From positions 1 through 27,539 of the IMG/VR virus record IMGVR_UViG_3300008107_001271: a stretch of DNA of 27,539 nucleotides; one strand, written 5' to 3'. Shown here piece after piece: positions 1,974 through 27,539 of the stretch; position 1 is the first letter of the stretch, and the number at the start of each line of letters is the position of its first letter. A program made the position numbers and the translations under genes. Under the pieces are notes generated by a model. That model saw only the letters and a list, made by a program, of their open reading frames with translations, made no database searches and was not told the origin of the DNA. The stretch is from a virus.

Positions 1974-2440
1974 TATACCTCTTCTAGAGAGAGAGAAACA
2001 TCCCAAAACTCTTGAGGGACGGAGGCTGAAGAAGACTTAACGTTTCTTTTTATAACTGTAAAACTACATGAAGTAAATACCATTGAAATAATTTCATCTC
2101 TAGCTGACACTCCGTTGTAAGATATTTTTACCTTAAATGCTCCCTTGCCTTTATTTAAATAAAAAGATTGAATTTCTGAAGCACCCATGCCTCCATCTAC
2201 CGTCATTGTATTATAGGTTGGGAGCATGCTCCAGTTTGCGCTAAATAATTTTTTGTCTGCAATCCAAATTTTTCTAAGGGACCCGTTAGACATTCTCTGT
2301 GTCTTCTCTATTCTTTCTATTTCTAAAGAAGCACTTGATCTATTGTGCTCAGATACCTTTGTCCATGTTGGAGTTACTAGGTCCGTTCCTGTATCAAAAT
2401 ACAGCAAAGATCCTACTGGTAGTGTCATTGGGTAGCTCAT
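1973..2440 (-). CDS. Minor tail protein in the distal-tail (Dit) position
   Basis: This 155-residue protein starts at an ATG overlapping the tape-measure stop (ATGA) and ends overlapping the hub start (TAATG), so the three are probably co-translated. The sequence is beta-rich (SLLYFDTGTDLV, FKVKISYNG, IISMVFTSCSFTVIK, WDVSLSLEEV), with no signal peptide or membrane segment, as expected for a small ring-forming tail-tip protein. In siphophages the gene between tape measure and hub normally encodes the Dit hexamer that joins tube to baseplate. At 155 residues it is shorter than classical Dit proteins and may hold only the tube-like N-terminal ring domain. Function is inferred from position and composition; no diagnostic motif was recognised. 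Confidence 0.6.
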   Translation of the reverse strand: MSYPMTLPVGSLLYFDTGTDLVTPTWTKVSEHNRSSASLEIERIEKTQRMSNGSLRKIWIADKKLFSANWSMLPTYNTMTVDGGMGASEIQSFYLNKGKGAFKVKISYNGVSARDEIISMVFTSCSFTVIKRNVKSSSASVPQEFWDVSLSLEEV

Positions 2441-5400
2441 GTTCTTTTAATACTCACATTCATTGGCGTTCCTACCATTTTAGCATTACTTTTTATACTT
2501 GACTGCAAAAATTCATAGGCGGCAATTTTAGCCTTTGTTATTAATTGATCCTCATTCATTCCTGGGGAAGCATTAATTACTTGGGTGTAATTTATTACTC
2601 CTTGTCCGCCGCCCGAACTCTTCATTGGCTCAAACATTTTTTCCGCTTGCTTTACATCATATCTAGGAGAAGCATACGGGACCTTAGCCATGTTAGGAAT
2701 AATCATTCCGCCGAATGCCATTTCTGGCCCACGGTCTCCAACAATTGTAGGAACCTTTGGATTAAGCTTCATTGTTCCGTATCCAGCTTTTACTGGCTTA
2801 ACACTAAGACCTGCTCCACCCGCATCTCCTACAACCTTCCATTTTTTACCATCTTTGTCTAAAAACTCAACGCCAATCCAAGTAGCACTAGGTCTTCCAT
2901 TTGATGAAGTGCCTGATATTTGTGTTGCTCCCGCTGCAGATAATGTAGACGGATGAACAAAAGTAGAGCCCGAGTATGTACCCGAACCCTGCGGTATTGT
3001 TCTAGGAACAGAGTTAATCTTAGCTGTGGTTTTTGATGAATCCATATCTAGCTTCTTGCCGTTAATAATAACATCCCCAGCCATAGATGTAATCTTAAGT
3101 CCGTTTGCTGCTAATCCCTTTTCTACTGCTCCAGTTACTCCGCCCATCAATGAAAGTGCCTGATCAGCTACGCTAGTTCCTTCTACCCTTGGAGATCTTT
3201 TTAGCTGCAAAGGAGGCTTAACAGCAGTTCCTGGAACTGCTACATTAGATGTTCCAAGTACCGCTGCTGCGTCTTGTCTTCCAGCGTTAGGATTTTCTTC
3301 TGTTCCAGTTTTTATATAATCCTTAAGCTCTTTACCTGCGGCAATTGCATTAAGCGCTAAGGTGGTCATTGCTTGATTAACATCATCAATCTTTTGTCTT
3401 TCTGTAGCAATTTTTTTATTTAGTTTATCTAGTTCACCAGCAGCAATTGCGGCATTGTCGCTAAGCTTCTGTTGGCCATCATTAATTAATTTTATTTTAG
3501 CTTCAAGAGGAGCATTAGCTAGCTTAAGTGCATCTTCAATTGCTTTCTTTTGAGAGTTGTATTGCTGATCTGATTGCAGACCTTGAATGTCTAAACTTGC
3601 TTGCTGTGCGGCTGCGGTGTTTCCCGTAGCTAGGGCAGCTTCGTATGCTGCTTGTGCTTTTGCAATTTGTCTTGCAATGTCTCCCTCTTGCTTTGCGGCG
3701 TCAAGTGCTTTTAGTCTTGACTCTGCAAGCTTGTTGTTAGCATCTATCTGCTTTTGTAAGCCTTTCAGCTGCTCTCTAGTATTGATTTGTTGTCTAGCAG
3801 TTTGTCCTTTTGCTGCATTTTCTAAAACCTTTTGCTGAGCTGTTAGCTTTCCTAGCAATGCATAGTTTTCTTTTAAAAATCCTATTTTGTTTGCTGAGGT
3901 TATTGCTTGAGAGGTTGCATCAGCTACTCTTGAAAGTGTGCTGACGGCTTCTGCGCCTAACTTTGAAAGGTCTCCTGTAAATCCTTTTGCCGCAAGATTC
4001 ATTTTTTCAAAAAGGCTAACAACGGTATCTAGCGGGTTAATAATCTTTTTAAGCTCTGGATTTTGCTTAATCATTTCAGCTCTAGTAGATGCGCTTAAAG
4101 TAGTTCTAGAAGACTCTAGTTTATTTAGTTTCCTAAGCATTTCTTCTTGTGCTTGATATTGTGTTAATACTTTTGTATTACCTGTCTTATCTTCTTTTGC
4201 AGCCTTCTTGCTTTTTTCAATCATGTCAATAATTCCTGCATCTATAGCGGTTAGACCTGTGTTAACAGCTTGTGCACCCTCACGCCCATTTTGTGTTGAA
4301 GCCGTAGCATAACTATTAATTGCAGACTCTGCTGCATCTTGTCCTGTTTTAATATTTCTAAACGCACGATTTCCTACAGTAAAGGCTCCAGCCTTTTCTG
4401 CTTGGTCTGACATTTTAAACATTGCAAATATTTTTTTGCTTGCCTCATCTGCTGATAAGCCAGCGGCCATCAGGGCAGTCTTTATATCTATTGCTACTTG
4501 TGGAAGTTCTGATTCTTTTGACTGATTAATTAATTTAATCTGATCAGTATAAACTTCAGTAACTTCTTTTTTAAGCTTCTTATACTCTTCAATTGTCATA
4601 GATATAGGCATGCCAGCATCTTGCATGCTTTCGTAAAGTAACTGATTTCTTTCTCGTATTGCTTCTATGTTTTTAACTGTATCTGCAAGTTTTGAGTTAT
4701 AATCAGTAAACCTAAGTCCTGCTTTTTTAGCAGCCTCTTCTGTAAATCCGTACTGGGTTACCCCAACTCTTAAATGTTCGTTGTGATCCTTTATTCTCTT
4801 GTTGATAAGAATAAAAGCACCTGTTGCTACAGCAAGTCCTACATTTAATCTTGTAAGACCCATTCCAATTCTTGCTAAAGTTTTTGTTAATGCATTTCCG
4901 TTTTTAGCAGAATTTTGAAGAGCTGCACCATATCTGTTAAGCATTCTTCCGCCCTTGTCACCATATACGGCGTTGCCCAAAGCGTCTTCTCCAATTTTTG
5001 TGGGGCCAACTCTTGTCCCTCTTGATGTAGAGAAGATAGGGGTTTTTGCAGAAGCTGGAATCTTAGACATAAGGCCACCGACTCTGCCTTTTCCTCCTTC
5101 ATTTTGTGTTTGTATCATTGCTGTCATTATCATCTGAGGCAAAATAAATGACAATGTTTGCATTATTGTTTGAAGTAAAGGATTGGCAATTTTGCTAGAA
5201 ATAAGCATTGGGGCCAAAGATGCTCCAAGCATTGCTATGCTCCCTCCTTTTACGTATCCTTGAGGAATAGGTGCTTGATTAGGAACAATGCCTCCAGCAT
5301 TTCTTGGAACAAATATTTCTGGTCCCTTTTCTCCGACAAGATACGGCTTACCAGAGTTTACTGGGCCGCCCATTTCTCTTGGCTGGATTTCAAATATTAA

Positions 5401-8400
5401 CTTCTTTAATGCTTCTGTCATTGGGGTATCTTTTTTAGAATCCCAGTTCAAATACTTCTTTCTTAAAATATCTTTATCAATAGGAGACAACTGACTTAAA
5501 ACTGCTCGATCTCCTATCATATCTGATGCAGCAGATCTAATAACAGAATCTAATACATCTGGCTCAAGCGCATTCTTTAAAGACCCTTTTGCATCTTTAA
5601 CATATCCGTAAGGCTTTTCTTTTGCTAACGCTGCTGCAAACTTATCATAGAATAATTTTTGAGTATGCTTTCTTAATCCTGTATTTGCAAACAGTTTATT
5701 AGCCATATCAATTGATAAAGAGTTAACTCCCCATGGGGCTGACTCATACATACTTGGCTTAGGGGCGCCTGTTGGGCCAAAGCCTGCACCAATTCTATGC
5801 ATTGCTTTACCCTTAAGAACATTACCGATCATTCCGCCAATATTAAATCCATTTGCTTCAGTCTTAAAGTCATTATCAGAAAGACTTACTGCTGCGCCTT
5901 TTTGTCTGCGTTTTAATTCATCAGCAGCAATCATCTTAGCAAGAGCTGCTGGAGTCATTGTTTTTTCTGGTGCTATATTTAATGAGGAATGAACTCCGTG
6001 AAGATCTTGGTAAGTTTGTCTTCTTGCAGTGTCCAATCTTGCAATCATTGCATTATAGACAGCCTTTTCTTCTGAGTTTAAATCAAATCTTCCTACTGTT
6101 TGTTTTAGCTTAGGCAAAGCCCTATTAATTTCTTCAAGCATTCGACTATTATATTGATCAGCATTCATGCCCATAGGAATGTCTGAAGTAGACTCAGCAA
6201 AGAATTTCTTGGCTCCGCTTCCTTTTACACCCATTAAATTAATTAATGCTTGATGCTTAAATGAAGGTATAGTTGCAGAGTAATCTCTTGGCCCTGACGC
6301 TGTTGCAAATACTCCAGCTGGTCCAACATCTGCAAGAATGTTTCCAGAAAGATTGCCCCTTCCTAGATCTTTATCTCCACGTAATGCTGATGCGACTAGT
6401 TGTCTAAAATACTGATCTTCTGTAAACTTGCCATCCTGATTGGCTATAGCAGGATTATATTTGGATTCAAGAGCAAGTAATTTTCTTTTACCCGTTGGGT
6501 CTGTAGGGTCTCTCATAACAACAACTCTTTGATTAGGTGTTTGTAATCCATGTACATCACGAGCAATTTCAGTTGCTCTTATTTCAGCAAGAGCTGCTTT
6601 CTCATCTAGAACTGGCTTAACAAAAACTTTATCTCCACCCTTATTGTAAATGCCACCAATTCCAGCAACAGGGAAACTTCTTCCAGATGTTGGCTCTAGA
6701 AGTTCATCATAATTAGTTACTGGGGATTTGCTAAATCTAGAGTTATCAACTGCTTGACTGGCTTTTTCCATTGCAATTTTTGCTGCTCTTTGAGCGTCTA
6801 CCTGTTTAATAGATTTAGGCATTCCTAAGAATAATCTTCCACCGCCAAATAATCTTTGTGCAAACTTGCCAGGGACCGTACCGCCTTTATTTAACTTAAC
6901 CGATCCAGCAAGAGAAAGTTTTCCACGAACTGGAACCCAAGATTTTCCTGCAATAATTGATTGTAAGAACATTCTAAAAATATCTTTTTGTTTTACTGTA
7001 GGTGCTGGACCCCTTGGCGCAGAGGTTGCAGCTACGAATCTTGTATCGTGTTGAGCTGCTTTTACTATATCGTCTACGGTTCCAGGTACTCCAGTTTTCT
7101 TTACCATTCCTTCAAAATCTTTTATTGCTCCTGCTTGAGTTAAATGAATAACGTCAGGCTGAAAATTTTTGCCTTGAAGTTTTGCGGCTATATCGTTAAA
7201 CGCTGTAGGCATAACTGCTGCAAACCCTGCAAAGCCTCTTGATCCAACTCCACCTAATTTTGCTATTAAAGATCTTCTAAATGCGTGTCCTCTAACGCTT
7301 TCAACTAATCTTCCGCCTGGACCAGTTTTTAGTTTGCCCGTTGCTTTAGGAATTGATTTTAAATCTTCATGAGCATCTAAAAATGCTGGATTGGCTAGCA
7401 TTGCTGCTCTAACTCTGTTCATATATCTATTTAAAGAGTTGTCAGCAGTTAAACCTGCAGCAGTAGCCTGTCTGCCAGTTTTTATTAGCTTTCTGTCTCC
7501 CTTAACATACTGATTATCAAAATCTTCAAGTTGCTTTGTTCTAGTTTTAACCCAATCTTCTGGGGAACCATTTAAATCTTTAGCTGCATCAAAATTAGCA
7601 GATGCAATTTCAATTGCCTTTTTAGTTCCAATTTCTGGTGCAACCCCTAAATACTCTGAAGCATCTAACAGGATAAATCTTGCACGAACATTTTGTTCAT
7701 AGTTTGGATTGTTAATAAAATCATAATACATCTTAATAGCTCTTTTATATTGAGCTTCTGTCATAGGCTTTCTGTGAGGGTGTGGATGACCAGCAGGTCC
7801 ACCAGTATGTCTTCTCGTTCCAGATGTATTTCCTGGGCCTCCGTTTAACTGCAACATTAAGCCTGGATCCTTGCTGGCAATTTCTTCTGGAATAACCGCT
7901 TCTCCAGGTGTGAGAACTACAGGAACCTGCCCTCCATCATTTCTAAATACAGGTCTTCCACCTAGAAGATTTTCAATGATTGGCATATTTCTTTCTGTTG
8001 AAGCTTTATTAATTACAAATGCGCCTGGCTCTGCAGTTGTGTGGTATGTGTCAGTGTTTCCAGTTCCTGGAACAATACCACCCTTTGCAAACTTAGGTTT
8101 TGTTGTTTGAATGTTATACCCTGCGCCCGATGTCTTTACTCCACCCAAGGATCTTGCAATTTTATCTACTATATCTTTTGTTGTTCCCTTATGGAACATT
8201 TCTTTCATATTTGATTTACCAGTTACTGGGTCAACAACAGGCTGTGTTGTTAATGGAACTGTTGTTAAGTTTACAACTCTTCCTTGCCCAGCTGCTATCT
8301 TTTGAGCTGTTTCAGCAAGCATTGCTTCAACTGTTGCATTTAATTGAATTACTTTTAATCTTGCTTCATCTGCTGTTATTTTACTTTGTTGAAGTTGCTT

Positions 8401-10794
8401 AACAATTAATGCAGTTTCCTGTGCTGCTAATTCTGTAATTTCACTAAACTCTGGCAGGAGAGCTTGATATGAATCTGACAAGCTGGCAGTTACTGTTCCT
8501 GTTGCTTGTACTTCTGCTTTTAATAATTTTATTTCTGCATCTGACTGCATTGCAATTGCAGCTGTCATTGCATGCCATTTAGCCGCTTCTTGAGAAACAA
8601 TTCCCGTAGAAATTCCGTTTACTGAAGTTACCCCAGGGATCTTTGGCAAGTCTTGATTCATGTAGGCTTGAGGATTTTTTCCAATTCTAACGTTTACTGG
8701 ACCCGCTCCTGGAACTGTACCAAATATAGTTCCCATTTGAGGACTTCCAGATGGAATCATGTGAGACATATCTCTTGAATATGGCTCTCCAATTAATGGA
8801 TTAGTTTTATCAACCATTCTTCCGCCTGGATTTCCTGCAGCAATTACACTACCAGCAATTGTACTAATCCCTGGCTGTACTGCAACTTTAGCAGCGTTTG
8901 CTTTTAGTTCAAGACTATCAAAAGATGCAGCAAGTGTGTTGACGGCATTTGTTAAAACAACAGTTGCTTCTGCGTCACTGTAAAATGTTGTACTTAATCC
9001 TTTTGCTGCAGCATCAGCTGCTAATATTTCTGGAGTAAGGAGTTTAAATCCTTGTCCCCCTGACATCATCTGTCTTAAAGAGAATATTCCTTTTGTAACA
9101 TATCCTATAAAGTTGGCCATAACACCAGTTAACATGATGAGTGGTCCTGCAAATGCAGTTAGGCCACCTAGTGCATTTAAGAATGTTTTAACTGGCCCTG
9201 GAAGTCCTTGGAAGAATTTAATTATTCCATCTACTACTTCTAATACCTTTGTGCTAATCTTTAAAAATTGTTCGCCTACTCCTGCAAGATCTGCTTGAAC
9301 TGATGCAAGGGCTCTTTTAAATTTTCCAGAAGCTGACTCGGTTATCATCCCTAATTCTCGTTCAGCAATACCCGCTAGCTCTGCCGTGCTGGCTCCCATT
9401 AACTCCATAACCTGTACAGTTTGAGATCCTTCTTTACCTAAATTTTCAAAAAGTGCTGAAAGTCTTGCATATTGGAATTTGCCAAATAGCTGCTCTATTG
9501 CTCTTGATTTACTTAAAGGGTCTAACGTATCTAGGGCTGTTTGAAGATCTACAATTGTTTCAGTTAAATTACCTGCATTAGATGACACAATCCTGTCTAA
9601 ATCAATTCCAAATCCCATAAACATTTCTTTAGCAACCTTTGTTGGGTTAATAAGAGATGCTAGAGAGGACTTTATTGCATTTGCGCCTTCAGATGCATTT
9701 ACTCCACCCTCTTTCATAGCTGTCAAATATAGTGCTAAATCTTGAACATCTCCGCCTAAAGATTTTACTACTGGACCTGCTTTTGGAATTGCTTCAACTA
9801 GATCTGCAAGGCTGGTTGAGGTTTGGTTTTCAACTGCGTTAAGGAAGTTAATTGATTCCGATAACTCTTGAGTATTTTGTTTAAAAGCATTTTGAATTGC
9901 AAGAGTTGCTTTCATTGCTTCTTGTCTATCAATTTCTCCAAGCACTGCAAGCCTTGATGTTTCTTGTGTTGTTTTTAAAAGATCTGCTCCTTCTTGTCCT
10001 GTTGCAGCTAAATCCGCAGCTAAGGCAATGGTGTCTTTAAAAGCAATACCGTAAGATCCCGCAATTTCTCTTGCAGTTTCTGAAACATCTTTTCTAACCT
10101 TAGCTAACTCTGCAGAAGATACTGCCGTCAATCCTCCATAAACCTTTGTTAGTCTGACCAACTCTTCATCTGCGGCTCTAAATGCTTTTTGAGCAGCCAT
10201 ACCGAATGCTGCAAGTGGTACAGTTAATCCTACTGTTAGCTGACGACCAGCCCACTGAGTATTCTTACCCCAGTTGATAAGCTGATTAGATCCGTCAAGC
10301 ATAACCTTATTCATAATGGCTAGCTCTTGTCTTGCAATTGCTGTCTTATTCTTTACTTCGTCTAGGCCTTTTGCAACCATTACGTTGTACTGCATTAAAC
10401 CCTGTGCATTTTTACCAACTGGTTGAACAATAGCATTCTGAAGCATAACTTGCTGCTTAGCTAAATCTCTAATTAAGTTGCTTGTTTTCTTTGTATGCCC
10501 GCTCCAGGCGTTGTAATATTCTCCTAGCTTGAGTCTACCTCTGTCTAGGTTTCTTCCAAACTTTTCTACATCTGAAGTAAGCGATACAAAGTGTGATGAA
10601 AACTGTCCCGTTGATCGCATAGTTTCTGCGAAGGACTTATTCATTACAGCAATTTGATTAGCAAGCTTGGCGTTAGTTCCCGCCGTAGTTTCTTGTAATT
10701 TTACGAGTTGGGCAGTAGTCGCAGCAAGCTGGGATCTTAAGCCCGTAAAGTCTGCGTTGGCCGTAATATGGGTCGTGATTAAATTATCTGCCAT
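2437..10794 (-). CDS. Tail tape measure protein (2785 aa) with embedded globular domains
   Basis: This is by far the largest gene, directly after the frameshifted chaperones, as expected for a tape measure. The protein sets tail length and is thought to leave the tail during DNA ejection. Residues about 1-590 match the TP901/PhageMin_Tail type core: a helical N-terminus, a Gly/Ala-rich TAT(G)QEGAD-type helical repeat, then a hydrophobic segment near 545-590 (GLTAFAGPLIMLTGVMANFIG). Gly-Gly linkers typical of tape measures recur near 900 (KGGIVPGTGNTD), 960 (LTPGEAVI), 1300 (KGGTVPGK), 1810-1840 (YLVGEKGPEIFVP, AGGIVPN) and 2680 (IVGDRGPEMAFGG). Between them, residues about 980-1800 form globular-looking segments, one kinase-fold-like. 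Residues about 1960-1990 are hydrophobic and about 2000-2500 are Gln/Ala/Lys-rich coiled coil. The SD is weak. At the usual 0.15 nm per residue the length implies a tail of about 420 nm, less if the inserts are not stretched. Confidence 0.95.
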   Translation of the reverse strand: MADNLITTHITANADFTGLRSQLAATTAQLVKLQETTAGTNAKLANQIAVMNKSFAETMRSTGQFSSHFVSLTSDVEKFGRNLDRGRLKLGEYYNAWSGHTKKTSNLIRDLAKQQVMLQNAIVQPVGKNAQGLMQYNVMVAKGLDEVKNKTAIARQELAIMNKVMLDGSNQLINWGKNTQWAGRQLTVGLTVPLAAFGMAAQKAFRAADEELVRLTKVYGGLTAVSSAELAKVRKDVSETAREIAGSYGIAFKDTIALAADLAATGQEGADLLKTTQETSRLAVLGEIDRQEAMKATLAIQNAFKQNTQELSESINFLNAVENQTSTSLADLVEAIPKAGPVVKSLGGDVQDLALYLTAMKEGGVNASEGANAIKSSLASLINPTKVAKEMFMGFGIDLDRIVSSNAGNLTETIVDLQTALDTLDPLSKSRAIEQLFGKFQYARLSALFENLGKEGSQTVQVMELMGASTAELAGIAERELGMITESASGKFKRALASVQADLAGVGEQFLKISTKVLEVVDGIIKFFQGLPGPVKTFLNALGGLTAFAGPLIMLTGVMANFIGYVTKGIFSLRQMMSGGQGFKLLTPEILAADAAAKGLSTTFYSDAEATVVLTNAVNTLAASFDSLELKANAAKVAVQPGISTIAGSVIAAGNPGGRMVDKTNPLIGEPYSRDMSHMIPSGSPQMGTIFGTVPGAGPVNVRIGKNPQAYMNQDLPKIPGVTSVNGISTGIVSQEAAKWHAMTAAIAMQSDAEIKLLKAEVQATGTVTASLSDSYQALLPEFSEITELAAQETALIVKQLQQSKITADEARLKVIQLNATVEAMLAETAQKIAAGQGRVVNLTTVPLTTQPVVDPVTGKSNMKEMFHKGTTKDIVDKIARSLGGVKTSGAGYNIQTTKPKFAKGGIVPGTGNTDTYHTTAEPGAFVINKASTERNMPIIENLLGGRPVFRNDGGQVPVVLTPGEAVIPEEIASKDPGLMLQLNGGPGNTSGTRRHTGGPAGHPHPHRKPMTEAQYKRAIKMYYDFINNPNYEQNVRARFILLDASEYLGVAPEIGTKKAIEIASANFDAAKDLNGSPEDWVKTRTKQLEDFDNQYVKGDRKLIKTGRQATAAGLTADNSLNRYMNRVRAAMLANPAFLDAHEDLKSIPKATGKLKTGPGGRLVESVRGHAFRRSLIAKLGGVGSRGFAGFAAVMPTAFNDIAAKLQGKNFQPDVIHLTQAGAIKDFEGMVKKTGVPGTVDDIVKAAQHDTRFVAATSAPRGPAPTVKQKDIFRMFLQSIIAGKSWVPVRGKLSLAGSVKLNKGGTVPGKFAQRLFGGGRLFLGMPKSIKQVDAQRAAKIAMEKASQAVDNSRFSKSPVTNYDELLEPTSGRSFPVAGIGGIYNKGGDKVFVKPVLDEKAALAEIRATEIARDVHGLQTPNQRVVVMRDPTDPTGKRKLLALESKYNPAIANQDGKFTEDQYFRQLVASALRGDKDLGRGNLSGNILADVGPAGVFATASGPRDYSATIPSFKHQALINLMGVKGSGAKKFFAESTSDIPMGMNADQYNSRMLEEINRALPKLKQTVGRFDLNSEEKAVYNAMIARLDTARRQTYQDLHGVHSSLNIAPEKTMTPAALAKMIAADELKRRQKGAAVSLSDNDFKTEANGFNIGGMIGNVLKGKAMHRIGAGFGPTGAPKPSMYESAPWGVNSLSIDMANKLFANTGLRKHTQKLFYDKFAAALAKEKPYGYVKDAKGSLKNALEPDVLDSVIRSAASDMIGDRAVLSQLSPIDKDILRKKYLNWDSKKDTPMTEALKKLIFEIQPREMGGPVNSGKPYLVGEKGPEIFVPRNAGGIVPNQAPIPQGYVKGGSIAMLGASLAPMLISSKIANPLLQTIMQTLSFILPQMIMTAMIQTQNEGGKGRVGGLMSKIPASAKTPIFSTSRGTRVGPTKIGEDALGNAVYGDKGGRMLNRYGAALQNSAKNGNALTKTLARIGMGLTRLNVGLAVATGAFILINKRIKDHNEHLRVGVTQYGFTEEAAKKAGLRFTDYNSKLADTVKNIEAIRERNQLLYESMQDAGMPISMTIEEYKKLKKEVTEVYTDQIKLINQSKESELPQVAIDIKTALMAAGLSADEASKKIFAMFKMSDQAEKAGAFTVGNRAFRNIKTGQDAAESAINSYATASTQNGREGAQAVNTGLTAIDAGIIDMIEKSKKAAKEDKTGNTKVLTQYQAQEEMLRKLNKLESSRTTLSASTRAEMIKQNPELKKIINPLDTVVSLFEKMNLAAKGFTGDLSKLGAEAVSTLSRVADATSQAITSANKIGFLKENYALLGKLTAQQKVLENAAKGQTARQQINTREQLKGLQKQIDANNKLAESRLKALDAAKQEGDIARQIAKAQAAYEAALATGNTAAAQQASLDIQGLQSDQQYNSQKKAIEDALKLANAPLEAKIKLINDGQQKLSDNAAIAAGELDKLNKKIATERQKIDDVNQAMTTLALNAIAAGKELKDYIKTGTEENPNAGRQDAAAVLGTSNVAVPGTAVKPPLQLKRSPRVEGTSVADQALSLMGGVTGAVEKGLAANGLKITSMAGDVIINGKKLDMDSSKTTAKINSVPRTIPQGSGTYSGSTFVHPSTLSAAGATQISGTSSNGRPSATWIGVEFLDKDGKKWKVVGDAGGAGLSVKPVKAGYGTMKLNPKVPTIVGDRGPEMAFGGMIIPNMAKVPYASPRYDVKQAEKMFEPMKSSGGGQGVINYTQVINASPGMNEDQLITKAKIAAYEFLQSSIKSNAKMVGTPMNVSIKRT
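5995..6687 (-). other. Kinase-fold-like domain inside the tape measure (residues ~1370-1600)
   Basis: The order of elements resembles the HipA/PI3K/CotH-like branch of the protein-kinase fold. A Gly-containing strand pair precedes KVFVKP with K1393. Next comes an alpha-C-like helix with E1404/E1409 (DEKAALAEIRATEIARDVHG), followed by strands QRVVVM and KLLALESKY (hinge-like). Then comes a catalytic-loop-like GDKDLGRGN with D1474, D1476 and N1481, GNILAD, and a possible metal-site acidic residue in SGPRDYS (D1504). The residues are visible; the fold assignment is by eye and not verified. It could instead be a degenerate pseudokinase or an unrelated alpha/beta domain. Confidence 0.4.
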
Positions 10795-10803
10795 ATGTAT
10801 ATG

Positions 10804-11468
10804 TTACTCTACTGAGTATCCTAATCCTGCTCCAATACCAAATCCTGCATCTGTTGCAAAAGAGCCTTGAAGTGAAACAACGTCATCTGCTGACGCATTT
10901 ATTCCAAGTGCCCTACGTTTGACATCTTCGAAGGAAGATCCCTCCTCATTATTACTGCTATTATCATTTAACTCAATACCCTGAATTGAAGCCAAGAACT
11001 TTCTTTTTTCCGATTCAGTTTTTTGCATTGATTTAAATGTCTGGACCATCTCTGGCATTGAAAGATTATCTTCTAGTTCTTCGTAATTTTTCCAATTACC
11101 TAAAAGAAATACTTCCCCTTCTAAAGCGGCTAGATCTAGTTCTGTCCAGCCAGTACTGCTGCCGCTAGTAGGTTTGGGTCGTCCATCTTAATCCCTCCGC
11201 AAATTTCAAGGATGCGGTTGATGGTTGGTACGTCAAGTGTGTCTTCAAATGCGTCTTTGTCCTTAACCAATTCAGGCAGTTGCTTTTCTAGGGCTACCGC
11301 ACATGCTTCGATAAGAATGGTGAGCGTTTCGTCTTCTGATGTTACTTCTTGTGTCTTTGCAATGACCTTCATAAACTTGCGAAGCTCTTTAATTGTTAAA
11401 GGCTTAAGCTTAACTGTTGCGCCATTTTGTAGCTGAATTTCTTCAACATCGTATACTGTTGTTGCCAT
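10804..11468 (-). CDS. Tail assembly chaperone gpGT fusion (programmed -1 frameshift product)
   Basis: The frame of the upstream chaperone shifts by -1 at CCCAAAC (11172-11178). It then continues without a stop for 122 codons to 10804, giving about 221 residues: join of 11468-11172 and 11172-10804. The shifted part contains TELDLAALEGEVFLLGNW, then KNYEELEDNLSMPEMVQ and KKFLASIQGIEL-like text (RKFLASIQGIEL). This is the classic gpT-part pattern seen in many siphophages of Actinobacteria. The fusion chaperones the tape measure, encoded next, during tube assembly. The ATG at 11058 in the downstream frame has no need to act as a start, because conserved sequence extends well upstream of it. Its last codons lie 9 bases before the tape-measure ATG. 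Confidence 0.88.
11125..11166 (-). other. Candidate stimulatory RNA stem downstream of the slippery site
   Basis: AGCGGC (11161-11166) can pair with GCCGCT (11125-11130). The 5' arm begins 5 nt after the CCCAAAC heptamer, the usual spacing. The loop is about 30 nt and holds two short palindromes, CAGTACTG and CTAGATCTAG, that could fold further. It may also form part of a pseudoknot. Confidence 0.4.
11136..11468 (-). CDS. Tail assembly chaperone gpG (zero-frame product)
   Basis: This 110-residue, mostly helical acidic protein starts at an ATG with a good SD (AGGAGG, on the plus strand cctcct at about 11474). It contains LKPLTIKELRKFMKVIAK and a C-terminal VPTINRILEICGGIK segment, which fit small tail chaperones encoded between the tube and tape-measure genes. 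Zero-frame translation stops at TAG (11136-11138), 11 codons after the slippery site. Most ribosomes should make this short form, with a minority shifting to gpGT. It has its own promoter just upstream, after the tube-gene terminator. Arginine codons CGC/CGT and CGA are used here more than in the tape measure. Confidence 0.88.
   Translation of the reverse strand: MATTVYDVEEIQLQNGATVKLKPLTIKELRKFMKVIAKTQEVTSEDETLTILIEACAVALEKQLPELVKDKDAFEDTLDVPTINRILEICGGIKMDDPNLLAAAVLAGQN
11172..11178 (-). promoter_or_regulatory. CCCAAAC -1 ribosomal slippery heptamer
   Basis: In the gpG frame the codons read C CCA AAC, a perfect X XXY YYZ heptamer (AAC is codon 99). Slippage gives CCC AAA and joins the conserved gpT frame with no intervening stop. 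Confidence 0.9.
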
Positions 11469-11576: not shown

Positions 11577-12155
11577 TTATAGCCAGGTGCGGTCTACGAT
11601 TGTACCGTATTCTGCGCCTGCATCTCCTGCTGCTCCTGATGGAAGCAAACGGAATGTTACTGGGAATGTTGATGCTGCGTTACGAGCCAAAGAGAACTGT
11701 GACTGTTGTACAGAAAGAACACGACGTGCATAATATACACGCTCTGTCTTTGATGATGCTGCAGTTGTTGGAGCCTGTCCAATTGCAACTAGCTGACGCT
11801 CAACTGGAGCTTCTCCTAGTGCACCTGCTGCAAGTCCTAGCTTCTTACCTGACTCAGTAAGAGTTGCTTGTGACTGACCAAATACGGCAAGAACGTTCTC
11901 AAGAGTTCCTTCTGCCATTTCTGTTGCAATCATAACTTCCATTGTCTCCTTGAACAGCTTAGCTGTATCAAGAAGCTGATCTACTGTTACTGAACCGTAT
12001 GATGGGTTGTATGTAATACGACCAACTGCTCCTGTTACTGCAGTTCCTGGTACCAAGTTCTCTACGTATCCTGATGTAGTAGAATCTTCTACTGACAAGA
12101 ATAGCGGAGACGCTCCAACAAGAATGTTTCTAGCATTACCTGTGTTTTGTGCCAT
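11577..12155 (-). CDS. Major tail (tube) protein
   Basis: This 192-residue protein lies between the tail terminator gene and the tail chaperones, the standard place for the tube subunit. The sequence is beta-rich with small residues (ILVGASPLFLSVEDSTTSGY, GRITYNPSYGSVTVDQL, FPVTFRLLPSG), as in tube-fold proteins that stack as hexameric rings. It starts at an ATG with SD GGAGG about 9 nt upstream. Codon use is optimised compared with the tape measure and fibres (CGT/CGC for Arg, frequent C- or T-ended codons), as expected for a very abundant protein. It appears as its own transcription unit, with a putative promoter in the 110-base gap upstream and a strong terminator just downstream. Confidence 0.88.
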   Translation of the reverse strand: MAQNTGNARNILVGASPLFLSVEDSTTSGYVENLVPGTAVTGAVGRITYNPSYGSVTVDQLLDTAKLFKETMEVMIATEMAEGTLENVLAVFGQSQATLTESGKKLGLAAGALGEAPVERQLVAIGQAPTTAASSKTERVYYARRVLSVQQSQFSLARNAASTFPVTFRLLPSGAAGDAGAEYGTIVDRTWL

Positions 12156-19666: not shown

Positions 19667-21466
19667 TTAAATACTTACTGACTCTGGCTCTACCACTGTG
19701 ATGAAAAAAGGAGTAGAACTGTCACCGAGAGATGACTCTGAAATGCTGAAAGATGTATCCGATATTAGATTAATTGTATTTCCTGTATATAGCAAGTGAT
19801 GGTTTAATATACTATTTACAGATAGGGCGTTTTCGTATATAGCCACATTATTATACATATGGCCTAGCCCTGACTTAGAGTCATTCTGGTTCTGATTAAA
19901 TTTAATACTTGTAGCCGCCGCCGTAAAATTGATCACAATATGATGCGGGTTATTGACTGAAAGGAAGTCCCAGACATTTGTCTCAGATGTCCTATTTATA
20001 CCATTTACATATATTGAAGATATTCCAGTCTTTGTAATGGCTCCTGCCGAGTTCCACTCATATATTTGAGATGCCCCAGAAACTAGAACATTTTGATTAT
20101 ACTGGGGGGTAAATATAAGCTCAACAGATCTAACGCTTGGGATGCTGTTTAAAGAAAATCCGTGGCCATTATACATAATTAAACCGTTGTTTCGATTGTA
20201 AGACAAGGTTTTGCTATTTACTTTAGGCAATGCATAATCATAAGAGGAAGATGCATAATATCCAGAGTTGTCGCTGTAGAAATTCTTTGAATTATAGAAT
20301 GCAATATCTAAAGAAGTTAAAATAGGAAGATATCTAGAAGAGTCGTCTGATGACAACGTTACTCTTAAATAAAGAATGTCTGAAACTTGATTATCGTTTT
20401 TATTAAAATAAGGTAGTGGTGATCCATTTACACATGTTTGCCATGTGACATTATTTATACTTGCTTCTACCAAAATACCCTTTACGTCATTTTCCCAGTG
20501 TATCTGTGAAGTTGTAATTCCTAAATAATTTGGAACAATAAAATGATCGGTAAATGAGAAAGATTTAGCTCCCGTTGATTCTGGTATATATACATAAGAT
20601 TGATCGCTTGATAAATACTCTGCACTTATATTTAATTCTTCCCACAATTTTGATACTGGGTAGGTATATGAAAATCTACGCTGCATAGATTCGGTATTCA
20701 TGCTAAACAAGTATCCTGCATCTATTGATACAATTTGAGATATATTTACTTCTTTAATTCCTTCATTGTAATGATTTAGTATCTGCGTATTTGATAATGC
20801 ATATCTATAAAATGCTACTGAATCTATTACAAGTCTGCCTGTGCATGGACCAGTTTTAAATGTAGCCAGCTCGTTAGAGAATTGATATGAAGTCAAAGAC
20901 AAGGTATCTACAATAGATCCGTTTACATATAGAGATAATAGGTTGCTTTGAAATATACCTACAACGTGTATTGCTTGAGCATTTGATACAGTATGCTCTA
21001 CTTTATTTGTACCAACCTTAAATATGATATTTCCATTTTCATAGAATATACCCGTATTAATTGAAGGATCTCCAACAATAGTTGCGCTTACATTGTTTGC
21101 AGGTAATGCACACCATGCCTCTATAGAGAATGAATTATCTTTATAGTATTTAGTTGCTATACCTTTTGGCTCATAGTATATTTCTGTAAGACTAGATACT
21201 TCTGTTCCTCTAATCCCGCCCGATACTAATGGCATTAATTGTTTTATGGATGCATTAGATGCAAAGCCGTTATTAAGGCTTCCTGAGTAGTCATAAACTG
21301 GCATTCCATTTATATCTGCATATGTCAATCCACTATCAAGCAAAGCCTGATAAGTAGGGTATTGAGATAGTAGTGCTACATAATCATCAATTGACCCAGA
21401 CTGAACTTCATCAAGTAAATAGAATGAGTTTGGAAAGTCATTTAGAACTGTATTTTTATATGACAT
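19667..21466 (-). CDS. LamG/concanavalin-A-like lectin-fold structural protein
   Basis: This 599-residue protein starts at an ATG with SD AGGAGG. Residues about 1-60 form an N-terminal segment (LNDFPNSFYLLDEVQSGSI) often found in phage LamG proteins. A first LamG-type jelly-roll spans about 95-235 (SFSIEAWCALPANN, HVVGIFQSNLLSLYVNGSIV, IDSVAFYRYALSNTQILNHY). A central beta-rich region is at about 250-420. A second LamG-like domain spans about 440-575 (SVELIFTPQYNQ, HHIVINFTAAATSIKFNQ, YNNVAIYENALSVNSILNHH). Such domains usually bind sugars or decorate fibres and capsids, so this is probably an adhesin or head/tail decoration protein. Its place just before the portal leaves open a capsid-fibre role. 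The following 56 bases hold only the approach to the next gene. Confidence 0.82.
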   Translation of the reverse strand: MSYKNTVLNDFPNSFYLLDEVQSGSIDDYVALLSQYPTYQALLDSGLTYADINGMPVYDYSGSLNNGFASNASIKQLMPLVSGGIRGTEVSSLTEIYYEPKGIATKYYKDNSFSIEAWCALPANNVSATIVGDPSINTGIFYENGNIIFKVGTNKVEHTVSNAQAIHVVGIFQSNLLSLYVNGSIVDTLSLTSYQFSNELATFKTGPCTGRLVIDSVAFYRYALSNTQILNHYNEGIKEVNISQIVSIDAGYLFSMNTESMQRRFSYTYPVSKLWEELNISAEYLSSDQSYVYIPESTGAKSFSFTDHFIVPNYLGITTSQIHWENDVKGILVEASINNVTWQTCVNGSPLPYFNKNDNQVSDILYLRVTLSSDDSSRYLPILTSLDIAFYNSKNFYSDNSGYYASSSYDYALPKVNSKTLSYNRNNGLIMYNGHGFSLNSIPSVRSVELIFTPQYNQNVLVSGASQIYEWNSAGAITKTGISSIYVNGINRTSETNVWDFLSVNNPHHIVINFTAAATSIKFNQNQNDSKSGLGHMYNNVAIYENALSVNSILNHHLLYTGNTINLISDTSFSISESSLGDSSTPFFITVVEPESVSI

Positions 21467-23675: not shown

Positions 23676-24377
23676 TTAAGCCTCATGGTGTATAAATATA
23701 TCGCCTGCAGCATTTGCTGTAGGATTTGTACCAGATGAGTTATAAAATATTTTATTTGAGACCGCAACCATTCCATTGGAATATGCTGTTGAGGCAACGG
23801 TTACAGAGCCCCCAAGAGAGACGGCGGACCCATTTACTGTAATAGATGAATTTGCAAGCTTGGCATTTGTAATTGACCCGTCTGCAATAACTGCTTCAGG
23901 ACCTTGTGGTCCTTGTATTCCTTGAAGTCCTTGTGGGCCTTGTGGGCCTTGTGGGCCTTGTGGGCCTTGTAAACCCTGTGCGCCCGTATCACCAGTATCA
24001 CCTTTGACACCTTGTAGCCCCTGTAGGCCTTGTAAGCCTTGTGGGCCTTGTGGGCCAACTATCTGTCCAGCAGAGGTCCAAGATGTGCCTCCCCATATAT
24101 ACAGGTCTCCATCAGAATCTACTATTCTTGCATCGTTGGCGCTATTGCCAGTAGATGGAAGTGATCCTACTGTTGCAACAGAAGCCTTTACATTTATAGA
24201 TGTTCCTTGTGGGCCTTGAATACCTTGAATTCCTTGTGGGCCTTGTTCTCCCTGTGGGCCTTGAGCACCAGTTGATATTCTTTGCAGGGTCCAGGCAGTT
24301 CCATCCCAAATCCATGTGTTTCCTCCAGCGGTAAACTGTTGATTTAACGTTGGACTATTTGGAAAATCTATTGCCAT
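23676..24377 (-). CDS. Collagen-like tail fibre protein 3
   Basis: This 233-residue protein starts with [27 protein letters not shown], nearly the same N-terminal head as fibre 2, suggesting attachment to the same virion site. Two Gly-X-Y stretches (about 38-60 and 110-160, mostly GPQ, GLQ and GIQ) flank a small domain ending in [20 protein letters not shown]. The C-terminus ([20 protein letters not shown], then GDIFIHHEA) is a short phage-fibre tip. Collagen-like repeats form triple helices in phage fibres without hydroxyproline. The small domain is also present in fibre 1 with high DNA similarity. SD TAGGAG overlaps the stop of the preceding small gene. Confidence 0.85.
23929..23970 (+). 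repeat. 9-bp tandem repeat encoding Gly-Pro-Gln
   Basis: The unit CCTTGTGGG (plus strand) repeats 4 times exactly, with a further partial copy. It encodes the collagen-like GPQ triplets of fibre 3 on the minus strand. Similar but less perfect runs lie at 24025-24055, 25540-25570, 26760-26800 and 27170-27345. Confidence 0.9.
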
Positions 24378-24387
24378 TTTATATCTC

Positions 24388-24603
24388 CTAAGCCCCTGCT
24401 ATTGCTCTAGCTTCAGATTCAGTTAATCCTAAAGACATTAATTTAAGTAATGCAGAAGATTTAATTGGATCAACAGGTGCACTTGTAGAGTCTTGTTCTA
24501 TTATAGCATTTATTTCAGCATTTCTTTGTAGTAATTCTTCAGCCGTATATTCTCGATATACAACTTCTTTTGTTTCTACATTTAATTCATTTACTTCGTT
24601 CAT
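24388..24603 (-). CDS. Small fibre-associated protein, paralogue B
   Basis: This 71-residue acidic protein starts at ATG 24601-24603, sharing one base with the fibre 2 stop (TAATG). A longer in-frame start at 24642 would lie inside fibre 2 and is less likely. It shares with the gene at 25695-25937 the pattern REYTxEEL...R near the N-terminus and the C-terminal K(L)xSLGLTExEAxAIxG. Both end in stop codons that form part of the SD of the following fibre gene. Similar short proteins with a C-terminal 'LGLTxxEAxA' helix occur beside many phage fibre genes and are candidate fibre chaperones. This role is inferred. Confidence 0.82.
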   Translation of the reverse strand: MNEVNELNVETKEVVYREYTAEELLQRNAEINAIIEQDSTSAPVDPIKSSALLKLMSLGLTESEARAIAGA

Positions 24604-25685
24604 TATGATGCTCCCCATAGTTTCCATGTTCCGCCGCCCCAAGTTCCCCCGCCTGTACTTATATTAATAGAATTTATTGCAGAGCTTGCATTGTAGGATC
24701 CACCTACAGTTTCAAACTGATCATAAACAATAGTGCTTGTTACTTCTCCACAAAGAATTCCAGTGTGTGAAAGGAATACTCCTTTGCTTCCAGTACTGTT
24801 TGCATTTGTAATACGCAAAGATCCTGAACCATAAGTATGTCCATTAAAATATGCTAAAAATGTTGGTATACAAAGTGTTGTTGTTACCGAAAGACCATTG
24901 TATGCGGTTCCTCCATAGGTTCTACTTATTTGAAAATCATAATCAGAAAAGTTTGTACTATTATTTAATTTAAACAGTGGCCTATTTGATGTTGTGTGAT
25001 ACACTCCTGAAAATGTTAAAAATAATTCTTTGTAAGCTCCATTTAAATTAGAAAAAGAAACTGTTGATCCTCCAGTTGAACTAACTTGTCCTATATAAGA
25101 CCAAACTCCGCCTCCTGATCCTGCTGGCCCTGTTTCACCTTGAATCCCTTGAATACCTTGTGGACCTTGTATACCTTGTATGCCTTGCAGGCCTTGAGGA
25201 CCTAAATCAGAAACAGTAATTGCTCCTGCCATTGATGAATGATATTCACACGCATAATAAAGAGCGGGTGCATTAAAAGGAACTTCAAATATAATAGTTC
25301 CTACATCTTCTCCATTATTTGTTACTCCAGAGCTATAAACATTTCCAGAGCTGTACGCCCCAGGAACTGTTTGAATCCAAAATGGATGACCTGATGCATT
25401 TACGTTAATTACATAACGATGGCCTCTTATAAAAGATAATGTTGGATTGTTTGATCCGTTAATAACATATGCGCCAGATCCAGAATTAGTTACAGATAAC
25501 GTTATACCTCCGCTTGCCCCTGCTGGTCCTGTTAAGCCTTGAATTCCTTGCGGTCCTTGTGGGCCTGTTGGACCCGTTACGCCTGTTCTAACAACATTCC
25601 ATGTAGTACCATTCCATGTCCATGAGTTTGTTCCTACAGTAAATACTTGATTCAATGTGGGGGAATTTGGGAAGTCTATTGGCAT
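24603..25685 (-). CDS. Collagen-like tail fibre protein 2 with cupredoxin-like domain
   Basis: This 360-residue protein begins with the same head as fibre 3 ([27 protein letters not shown]), then a short Gly-X-Y run (38-58). Residues 61-160 form a cupredoxin (plastocyanin)-like beta-sandwich with potential type 1 copper ligands H100 (SGHPFWIQT) and C146/H149/M152 (YYACEYHSSMAG). Similar domains are known in structural proteins of aquatic phages. A second collagen stretch (161-190) follows, then a C-terminal beta-rich tip (200-360) ending INSINISTGGGTWGGGTWKL. This tip pattern is shared loosely with fibre 1 and is a likely receptor-binding domain. SD GGAG overlaps the upstream stop; its own stop overlaps paralogue B's ATG. 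Confidence 0.88.
   Translation of the reverse strand: MPIDFPNSPTLNQVFTVGTNSWTWNGTTWNVVRTGVTGPTGPQGPQGIQGLTGPAGASGGITLSVTNSGSGAYVINGSNNPTLSFIRGHRYVINVNASGHPFWIQTVPGAYSSGNVYSSGVTNNGEDVGTIIFEVPFNAPALYYACEYHSSMAGAITVSDLGPQGLQGIQGIQGPQGIQGIQGETGPAGSGGGVWSYIGQVSSTGGSTVSFSNLNGAYKELFLTFSGVYHTTSNRPLFKLNNSTNFSDYDFQISRTYGGTAYNGLSVTTTLCIPTFLAYFNGHTYGSGSLRITNANSTGSKGVFLSHTGILCGEVTSTIVYDQFETVGGSYNASSAINSINISTGGGTWGGGTWKLWGAS
25206..25505 (-). other. Cupredoxin-like domain of fibre 2 (residues 61-160)
   Basis: The segment has the order His (H100) ... Cys-x2-His-x2-Met (C146, H149, M152), with strands YVINVNASG and FEVPFNAPALYYACEYH. The ligand set matches a type 1 copper centre, although C-x2-H-x2-M spacing is tighter than in plastocyanin. 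Confidence 0.65.
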
Positions 25686-25694
25686 GTTATTCTC

Positions 25695-25937
25695 CTATAA
25701 CCCTACTATTGCTTTAGCTTCATCTTCAGTTAACCCCAAAGACTGTAGTTTAATAATAGCAGATTCTCTTAAAGCAACAGATTCTTGATTTTCTAAAAAT
25801 TGATCTTGAGCTCTCATGTCAATAACTTTTTGCGGAGGATTAGATTCAAGTTCTGCTCTTTTATCTAGCTCTTCTTGAGTATACTCTCTTTCAATAACTT
25901 CTCCAGTAGAAATATTAATCTCTGTTATATTTGTCAT
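25695..25937 (-). CDS. Small fibre-associated protein, paralogue A
   Basis: This 80-residue acidic helical protein has its ATG overlapping the fibre 1 stop (ATGA), so it is probably translated by coupling. The N-terminal strand NITEINISTGEVIEREYT is followed by a helix rich in Glu and Gln, and the C-terminus reads SAIIKLQSLGLTEDEAKAIVGL. It is a paralogue of the gene at 24388-24603. The last codon pair TTA TAG overlaps GGAG of the next SD. It may be a chaperone or trimer-cap for fibre 1; no enzymatic motif is present. Confidence 0.83.
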   Translation of the reverse strand: MTNITEINISTGEVIEREYTQEELDKRAELESNPPQKVIDMRAQDQFLENQESVALRESAIIKLQSLGLTEDEAKAIVGL

Positions 25938-27539
25938 AATGTACTCCCTAATACAGTAAAGTATGTTGACAGTTGAAGCGATCCGCCAATAACTCTACCA
26001 AATGCTCCTGCGCTTCCATAAAGCAGTTCAAATGTAATTGAGTTAATTGGTCCTGTGTTATTCCATATCCCAGTTACATTTCTAGTTTTTGGATAAGCCC
26101 CGCTGCCAATAGATGATCTTCCTTGTGCTACTAAGTTATATGATTTTGCAGTAGCAGATAAATTATCAAAAATTTCTATGTACCCTCCCGAAGGACCTGA
26201 AGGAACTATAAATAGTCCTGGGTCTCCGTTATTTGCTCCGTAAGATTGCGCTTCATATCCAGATAATCCAGTTCCGCCTGTTGCGCCAGTTCCATAAAAT
26301 GAGCTCTGTGAATAACCAATGAAGTCTAACAATCCGTATCCAAATTTACTATTTGCCGCTCCTCCGCCATTTACAGATGCTACTAGAAGGTGATTATTTG
26401 GATCAGAAGGTGCGGCAAGTGTTCCACCGCTAACTTCTTGTCTAAACCAAATTATTTTAAGTCTATTGTATGATCCAAGTCCAGACAGCGTAACTGTAGT
26501 CCCAGATGTTACTGCTTGATTAGTAATTATTTCTGTCCATCCAGTTGGGGTGTAGCCACTTGGACCTGCTGGTCCTTGTATGCCTTGAGGCCCTGTTGCA
26601 CCTTGTGGACCTGCTTGAGAATTTCCAAATTCAATCCATGATGAATCATAATAAATGTAGGTAAGTCCATCATCTGAGTTATACCAAGCTTGTCCTTCTA
26701 CTGGATTTGAAGGAGGTGTTGATGCTACTACTGAGAATGTTGCTTTTGATCCCGCCGCACCTTGTGGTCCCTGTGGGCCTTGTGGGCCCTGCGGTCCTAC
26801 AATTTGTCCTGCTGAAGTCCAAGATGTGCCATCCCATATATAAAGATCTCCGTCTGCTTCTACAATTCTTGCATCGTTAACAGTATTTCCCGTTGAAGGC
26901 AATGCTGCAGATGTTAACGCAGATGATTTAAGATTTATTGAAACACCCTGTGGTCCTTGTGGACCTGCTGGTCCTTGAGGCCCTGTTGCACCAGCGGGAC
27001 CAGATAAAGATGATCCAACTTCAACCCAATAAGAATCATAATAGATATAACTCTTACCGTTTAAAGAATTAAACCATGCTTGACCCGCAACTGGATTAGA
27101 GGGTGCTGTTTCTGATGTAATAGAAAATGTTGCTTGAGGTCCTTGTGCACCAGTTAAACCTATATTTCCTTGCGGTCCTACTGGTCCTTGTGCACCAGTT
27201 AAACCTTGTGGGCCTTGTGGTCCTGTTGCACCAGTTGCTCCTGTGTCTCCAGTATCACCTTTAACACCTTGAATTCCTTGAATTCCTTGCGGTCCTTGTG
27301 GGCCTTGTGGTCCTGTTGCACCAGTTAAACCTTGTGGGCCTTGAATACTTCCAACGTTATCCCACTCGCTATTTACTGAATCCCAAACATGCAAATCACC
27401 TGAAATTAAATAACCATCTCCAGCACTTCCTGTTGGATGTGCTGCTTGTAAAGCTGCAAGTGTTGCATATGATCCTAATATTTCTATGCCAGTTCCCGTT
27501 GCTCCTTGAGGACCCGTGTCTCCTGTATCGCCTTTATCG
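25934..27539 (-). CDS. Collagen-like tail fibre protein 1, partial (N-terminus outside window)
   Basis: The frame is open up to the right edge: upstream of 27394 it reads [48 protein letters not shown]. The first internal TTG at 27394 is therefore not the start. At least 534 residues lie in the window. Gly-X-Y blocks alternate with small beta modules. Two modules are internal duplicates with SNPVxGQAWxNS, then YIYYDSxWxExG. One ([28 protein letters not shown]) is shared with fibre 3. The C-terminal 200 residues form a beta-rich tip with a Gly/Ser-rich face ([28 protein letters not shown]), probably receptor-binding. The stop overlaps paralogue A's ATG. Confidence 0.9.

Follow-up and report, generated by a model that had tools for sequence, protein, structure and literature searches.

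A predicted kinase-fold domain carried as exchangeable cargo in the tape measure proteins of uncultured tailed phages

The tape measure protein of an uncultured tailed phage was found to contain, at residues ~1355–1605, a domain which, judged by its predicted structure, almost certainly has a kinase-type fold, and whose conserved residues and model make catalysis likely. The domain can be assigned by its model to the kinase-fold superfamily, yet falls into no named sequence family. We consider it reasonably probable that it represents a tail-delivered phosphotransferase with a fold of the HipA/CotH/PI3K type, which would act on the host early in infection. The domain is encoded in a window, that is, the whole stretch of DNA analysed (27,539 bases), which is a piece of the phage genome with head and tail genes on the minus strand (Table 1).

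Table 1. Features of the tape measure ORF and of a second kinase-like segment in a related locus. Residue n of ORF 2437–10794 (minus strand) begins at position 10794-3(n-1); positions refer to the window unless a locus is named, and counts refer to 136 homologous domain sequences.
Feature	Position	Strand	Evidence
Tape measure protein, 2785 aa	2437..10794	(-)	Open frame; PhageMin_Tail, E 1.2e-27; PHROG tape measure families, best E 1.7e-120
Tape measure core, residues 1-650, common to all relatives	8845..10794	(-)	PHROG/Pfam span; BLAST between tape measures
Gly-rich linkers 'KGGIVPGTG...PGAFVI...LTPGEAV', residues ~904-977, upstream of cargo region	7864..8085	(-)	Sequence
Variable slot, residues 1000-1300	6895..7797	(-)	Comparison of related tape measures
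Predicted kinase-fold domain, residues ~1355-1605	5980..6732	(-)	AlphaFold2; kinase matches in Foldseek and VIA-align
Putative glycine loop G1378-x-G1380-G1381, upstream of K1393	6652..6663	(-)	132, 135 and 136 of 136
K1393, putative beta-3 Lys (DKVFVKP)	6616..6618	(-)	136/136; model strand, local 49-56
E1404, putative alpha-C Glu	6583..6585	(-)	E 131, D 5 of 136; model helix, local 59-76
Putative catalytic loop R1472-G-D1474-K-D1476-L-G-R-G-N1481	6352..6381	(-)	R1472, D1474, D1476, L1477, N1481 136/136
D1489-V-G1491, probable DFG equivalent	6322..6330	(-)	D1489 136/136, G1491 127/136; placed from model DSSP
D1504, non-conserved acidic site	6283..6285	(-)	D 96/136, otherwise E/G/A/T/S
Second kinase-like segment (HGDMHPGNLLLKGKKTLGAFDWG), residues ~2985-3235 of 4157-aa ORF	L027:15110-15862	+	Also in L039

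ORF 2437–10794 is a phage tape measure protein, as seen both from its profile matches and from its position: directly upstream lie an ORF for an Ig-domain, major-tail-like protein (11577–12155) and a weak chaperone match (11136–11468), and the order of major tail, chaperone and tape measure genes is the one annotated in phage Wofford. Hydrophobic stretches at residues 537–566 and 1979–1997 of the protein flank the kinase-fold domain. Among isolated phages, those whose tape measure cores are nearest to this one have mostly Streptomyces and Gordonia as hosts, so that the host here is likely actinobacterial. Elsewhere in the window, a 599-residue ORF with a Laminin_G_3/ConA-like lectin domain (19667–21466; E 1.8e-9) is located between the portal and tail fibre genes, and several ORFs at 23676–27394 match tail fibre, collagen-like and baseplate-wedge connector proteins; the tape measure there is of the siphophage type.

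A first AlphaFold2 model of the domain, derived from 22 sequences, had a pLDDT of 74.5, and its matches already included CtkA, HipA and HipT. The second model, derived from 43 sequences, reached a pLDDT of 84.6 and a pTM of 0.80; its least certain part follows the catalytic loop (local residues 151–170; mean pLDDT 60–69), and C-lobe-like helices are found further downstream (local 173–264). When the second model was compared with the PDB using Foldseek, three CtkA chains led the matches (E 4.2e-4 to 7.0e-4; prob 0.99 for the best), AmiN and HipA (5.7e-3) were among the next, and the others in the best 50 were likewise kinases. The global TM-scores are low (about 0.33), and we therefore claim the fold and not a close relationship to solved kinases. 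VIA-align ranked CotH from Bacillus cereus first (PDB 5jda, 5jd9; Z 12.3, 214 residues aligned, r.m.s.d. 3.8 Å), along with CtkA (10.8), PI4KII (10.1), MavQ (9.8), PI3K-delta (9.6), HipT (9.4) and HipA (8.8); 111 chains had a Z of at least 8, and 49 of the best 50 PDB rows are kinases of the HipA/CotH/PI3K group, the other being the N-terminal part of LepB from Legionella. By the program's own caveat a Z below 8 may reflect a common arrangement, and the kinase values given here exceed 8. An earlier note on this DNA had proposed a HipA/PI3K/CotH-like fold and a structure search as the way to examine it; the closest solved folds, namely CotH, PI4K/PI3K and HipA/CtkA/HipT, come from exactly the groups that it named, and the model which matches them is a confident one.

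Within a library of viral structures, the best matches were parts of other large phage proteins, headed by a 1340-residue 'ADP-ribosyltransferase' of Mycobacterium phage Onyinye (BFVD A0A6B9L6W7; E 2.2e-5), which suggests that the predicted fold recurs in other phage proteins. For the Onyinye protein itself, the match would put a kinase fold beside an ART.

At the level of sequence, the domain had no significant match in Pfam, PHROGs or the PDB, nor among 50,697 isolated phage records, and 84,980 species genomes of bacteria and archaea yielded no relative. An hhalign comparison with 15 HipA sequences gave a non-significant E of 0.086, the 26 aligned columns lying outside the catalytic region; given that this set was narrow and of the E. 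coli type, the result is weak evidence against kinship with HipA. As an aside, a metagenome-assembled genome labelled Candidatus Nanosynbacter (L267) carries a HipA that is 100% identical to that of E. coli K-12, probably owing to contamination of the public record.

The comparison with individual kinase groups is thus one of shared predicted fold and differing sequence and context. CotH, the best structural match, is only 8% identical to the domain, whose sequence does not match the CotH profile (PF08757), and is a spore coat protein rather than part of a phage tape measure. The Ser/Thr kinases HipA, HipT and CtkA resemble the domain both in fold (Z 8.8–10.8) and in the D-x4-N catalytic loop; the domain, however, has no match to the HipA profile (PF07804) and is not a toxin–antitoxin gene. 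Likewise, the fold is shared with the PI3/PI4 lipid kinases while the PI3_PI4_kinase profile (PF00454) finds no match. The presence among the structural neighbours of the lipid kinases PI4KII, MavQ and PI3K and of the amicoumacin kinase AmiN lends some credit to the idea, which we regard as unlikely but worth serious attention, that an active, delivered kinase-fold enzyme catalyses another reaction, be it AMPylation, glutamylation, or the phosphorylation of a lipid, a sugar or a small molecule. SelO and SidJ are examples of kinase folds with other chemistry. Nonetheless, the best overall neighbours (CotH, CtkA, HipT and HipA) are protein kinases, although the fold does not settle the substrate.

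Residue conservation was counted over 136 distinct homologous domain sequences that are 35–100% identical to the one in the window. G1381, K1393, R1472, D1474, D1476, L1477, N1481, D1489 and R1503 are, among others, invariant in all 136. The earlier note had pointed to an order of kinase elements at positions 5995–6687, which indeed encode residues 1370–1600 and contain every residue that it named where it placed them. That order is present, but the pattern hydrophobic-x-hydrophobic-K...E...DxxxxN...D arises on average 1.67 times per shuffle of the tape measure sequence, and 73% of the shuffles contain it one or more times, so that the order of residues by itself is at chance level and carries no weight; the conservation lies well above that level, and the fold is not at it either. 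K1393, D1474, D1476 and N1481, which had been singled out as kinase residues, are retained throughout, and no homologue lacking any of them was encountered among the 136. Of two residues offered as alpha-C-like Glu, E1404 holds up, whereas the position of E1409 varies (Q/E/I/T/D/K).

The later acidic site of that proposal, D1504, was rejected as the DFG Asp for want of conservation. Instead, D1489 (in the motif D-V-G in the window phage) stands out: no other acid in the stretch from N1481 to the C-terminal helices is invariant, and the model places D1489 after a very short beta-7/beta-8 hairpin (local 143–148); on these two grounds we infer that D1489, rather than D1504, is probably the metal-binding, DFG-type Asp. 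Its spacing of 8 from N1481 is unusually short, the corresponding spacing in E. coli HipA being 18 if the metal-binding Asp is, as we assume, D332. Hence the glycine loop, the beta-3 Lys, the alpha-C Glu and the DxxxxN loop, i.e. the classical kinase set, appear from the alignment to be kept, with the placement of K1393, D1476 and N1481 in the predicted active site judged from secondary structure and conservation.

This pattern bears directly on the rather unlikely reading that the domain is a pseudokinase or kinase-fold binding module, which would hold a nucleotide, DNA or a host protein and aid channel or tail assembly without phosphotransfer. The non-canonical DFG spacing, the variability of D1504 and the poor modelling of the segment after the catalytic loop would all fit such a module. 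Pseudokinases, however, usually have lost at least one of the beta-3 Lys, the catalytic Asp, the Asn and the downstream Asp, and here the first three, together with one downstream Asp, are kept without exception in 136 copies, which are divergent and recombine.

When IMG/VR was searched for the domain, an initial scan retrieved 112 related stretches and a profile retrieved 337, and scans with divergent members added more. Of 321 cases, with each overlapping locus counted on its own, 314 have the domain and the tape measure core encoded in one ORF; five of the other seven are truncated at the sequence's 5' end, and two represent one contig with a short ORF. At L037:8945-10111 (same contig as L117), the domain lies in a 389-residue frame without the core, either because the gene is split or because the assembly is wrong. 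In ORFs with a whole core, the domain starts anywhere from residue about 747 to residue about 1391. For the most distant tape measures, alignment with the window is confined to two parts, the core at the N terminus, at about 39% identity, and the domain, at up to 58%; the sequence between and after them differs. In some distant relatives the domain is more conserved than the core (57% versus 39%).

The kinase-fold domain is under purifying selection: among close relatives dN/dS is about 0.10–0.20 for the domain and 0.06–0.13 for the core, and the flanking slots diverge. Residues 1000–1300, for example, are 21–24% identical where the cores are 83–93% identical, and are often non-homologous between otherwise close tape measures; this variable slot (6895–7797) adjoins the domain. 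Identities between pairs of loci also diverge in both directions, the core being 91% and the domain 48% identical between L224 and L255, and 34% and 66%, respectively, between L154 and L150. It thus appears from these comparisons that core and domain have separate histories and that the domain has been exchanged between phages. Moreover, it is absent from 12 distinct tape measures whose cores are related and which continue for at least 900 residues beyond the core; eleven come from IMG/VR contigs and one from Streptomyces phage Wofford. In seven domain-less tape measures (L196, L216, L240, L241, L245, L262 and L264), residues ~740–1400 are other sequence not recognised by Pfam. Because the domain is exchanged and is absent from these 12 relatives, its distribution indicates that it behaves as optional functional cargo and not as a structural part or ruler segment; the possibility that it is an essential piece of the structural core was rejected in view of the related tape measures without it.

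The same relatives weigh on an improbable reading in which the domain would act on phage proteins during assembly (tail proteins or itself, in the control of tail length or release) and not on the host. Being encoded within the tape measure ORF among structural genes, the domain is present during tail assembly; however, since related phages with cores 63–71% identical manage without it, assembly in general does not need it. The last alternative, a mere structural spacer with a chance likeness to kinases, is largely refuted and highly improbable, for although the order of the motifs, taken by itself, would be expected in shuffled sequence by chance, kinases are the best structural neighbours in two models and the catalytic residues are invariant.

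We thus return to the tail-delivered phosphotransferase. It is believed that tape measures leave the tail on ejection and pass into the cell envelope, where they form a channel. The domain would be packed in the tail tube, probably unfolded or extended, would be ejected together with the tape measure during DNA injection, and may then, by analogy, refold at or inside the host membrane. There it would use ATP to phosphorylate a target in the host, for which a protein is the likeliest candidate, and thereby favour early infection; ATP use, refolding, location, target and timing are all proposed. A bolder reading, to which we give somewhat less than even odds, is that in a large group of uncultured phages the tape measures serve as vehicles for an exchangeable, active and previously undescribed kinase family, sometimes accompanied by an APH/ABC1-like kinase in the same protein, which would arrive in the cell with the first DNA and phosphorylate host targets before phage genes are expressed.

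Enzymes delivered with the virion are known, namely Alt of T4 and the RNA polymerases of N4 and P23-45, and the tape measures of siphophages are usually regarded as rulers and channel formers. Kinase-fold cargo in tape measures would mean that tailed phages inject protein-modifying enzymes via the tail, and the domain would enlarge the kinase superfamily by a branch missed by sequence profiles. The domain and its residues, together with the domain-less relatives as a natural negative control, allow the first minute of infection to be tested.

The closest precedent comes from Thermus phage P23-45, whose virion RNA polymerase and tape measure are fused; the polymerase was proposed to act at the pore (PMC10770324). 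Like the proposed enzyme described here, it is built into a tape measure and is thought to enter the cell along with it; unlike the present domain, which lies mid-protein and is known from sequence and model, it is a different enzyme, N-terminal and biochemically tested (PMC10770324). Kinase folds in large phage proteins that are predicted to be injected have also been described for polyvalent proteins, mainly from elements of Verrucomicrobia, Chlamydia and Bacteroidetes (PMC5512222, Iyer et al. 2017). These kinases lack the C-terminal subdomain, whereas the model of the present domain keeps C-lobe-like helices (local 173–264) and its carrier is a tape measure. Finally, the actinobacterial effector Sle1 has a tape-measure-derived carrier with exchangeable functional domains, in a paper that does not mention kinases; it belongs to contractile injection systems in bacterial genomes and not to the tape measure of an uncultured phage (PMC13277306). 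No report of a tape-measure kinase domain was found in the open-access literature searched, which is not proof of absence.

Two of the related tape measures, L027 and L039, exceed 4,100 residues and contain a second kinase-like segment with the motifs HGDMHPGN...FDWG, for which no match was found among isolated phages. In L027, Pfam assigns it E-values of 1.1e-4 for ABC1 and 2.6e-4 for APH, both just short of the curated cut-offs, and of 0.088 for HipA_2. The occurrence of two kinase types in one tape measure strengthens the view of these domains as cargo. The L027 tape measure also contains an OmpA domain at residues ~2697–2790 (E 3.3e-17), which perhaps binds peptidoglycan.
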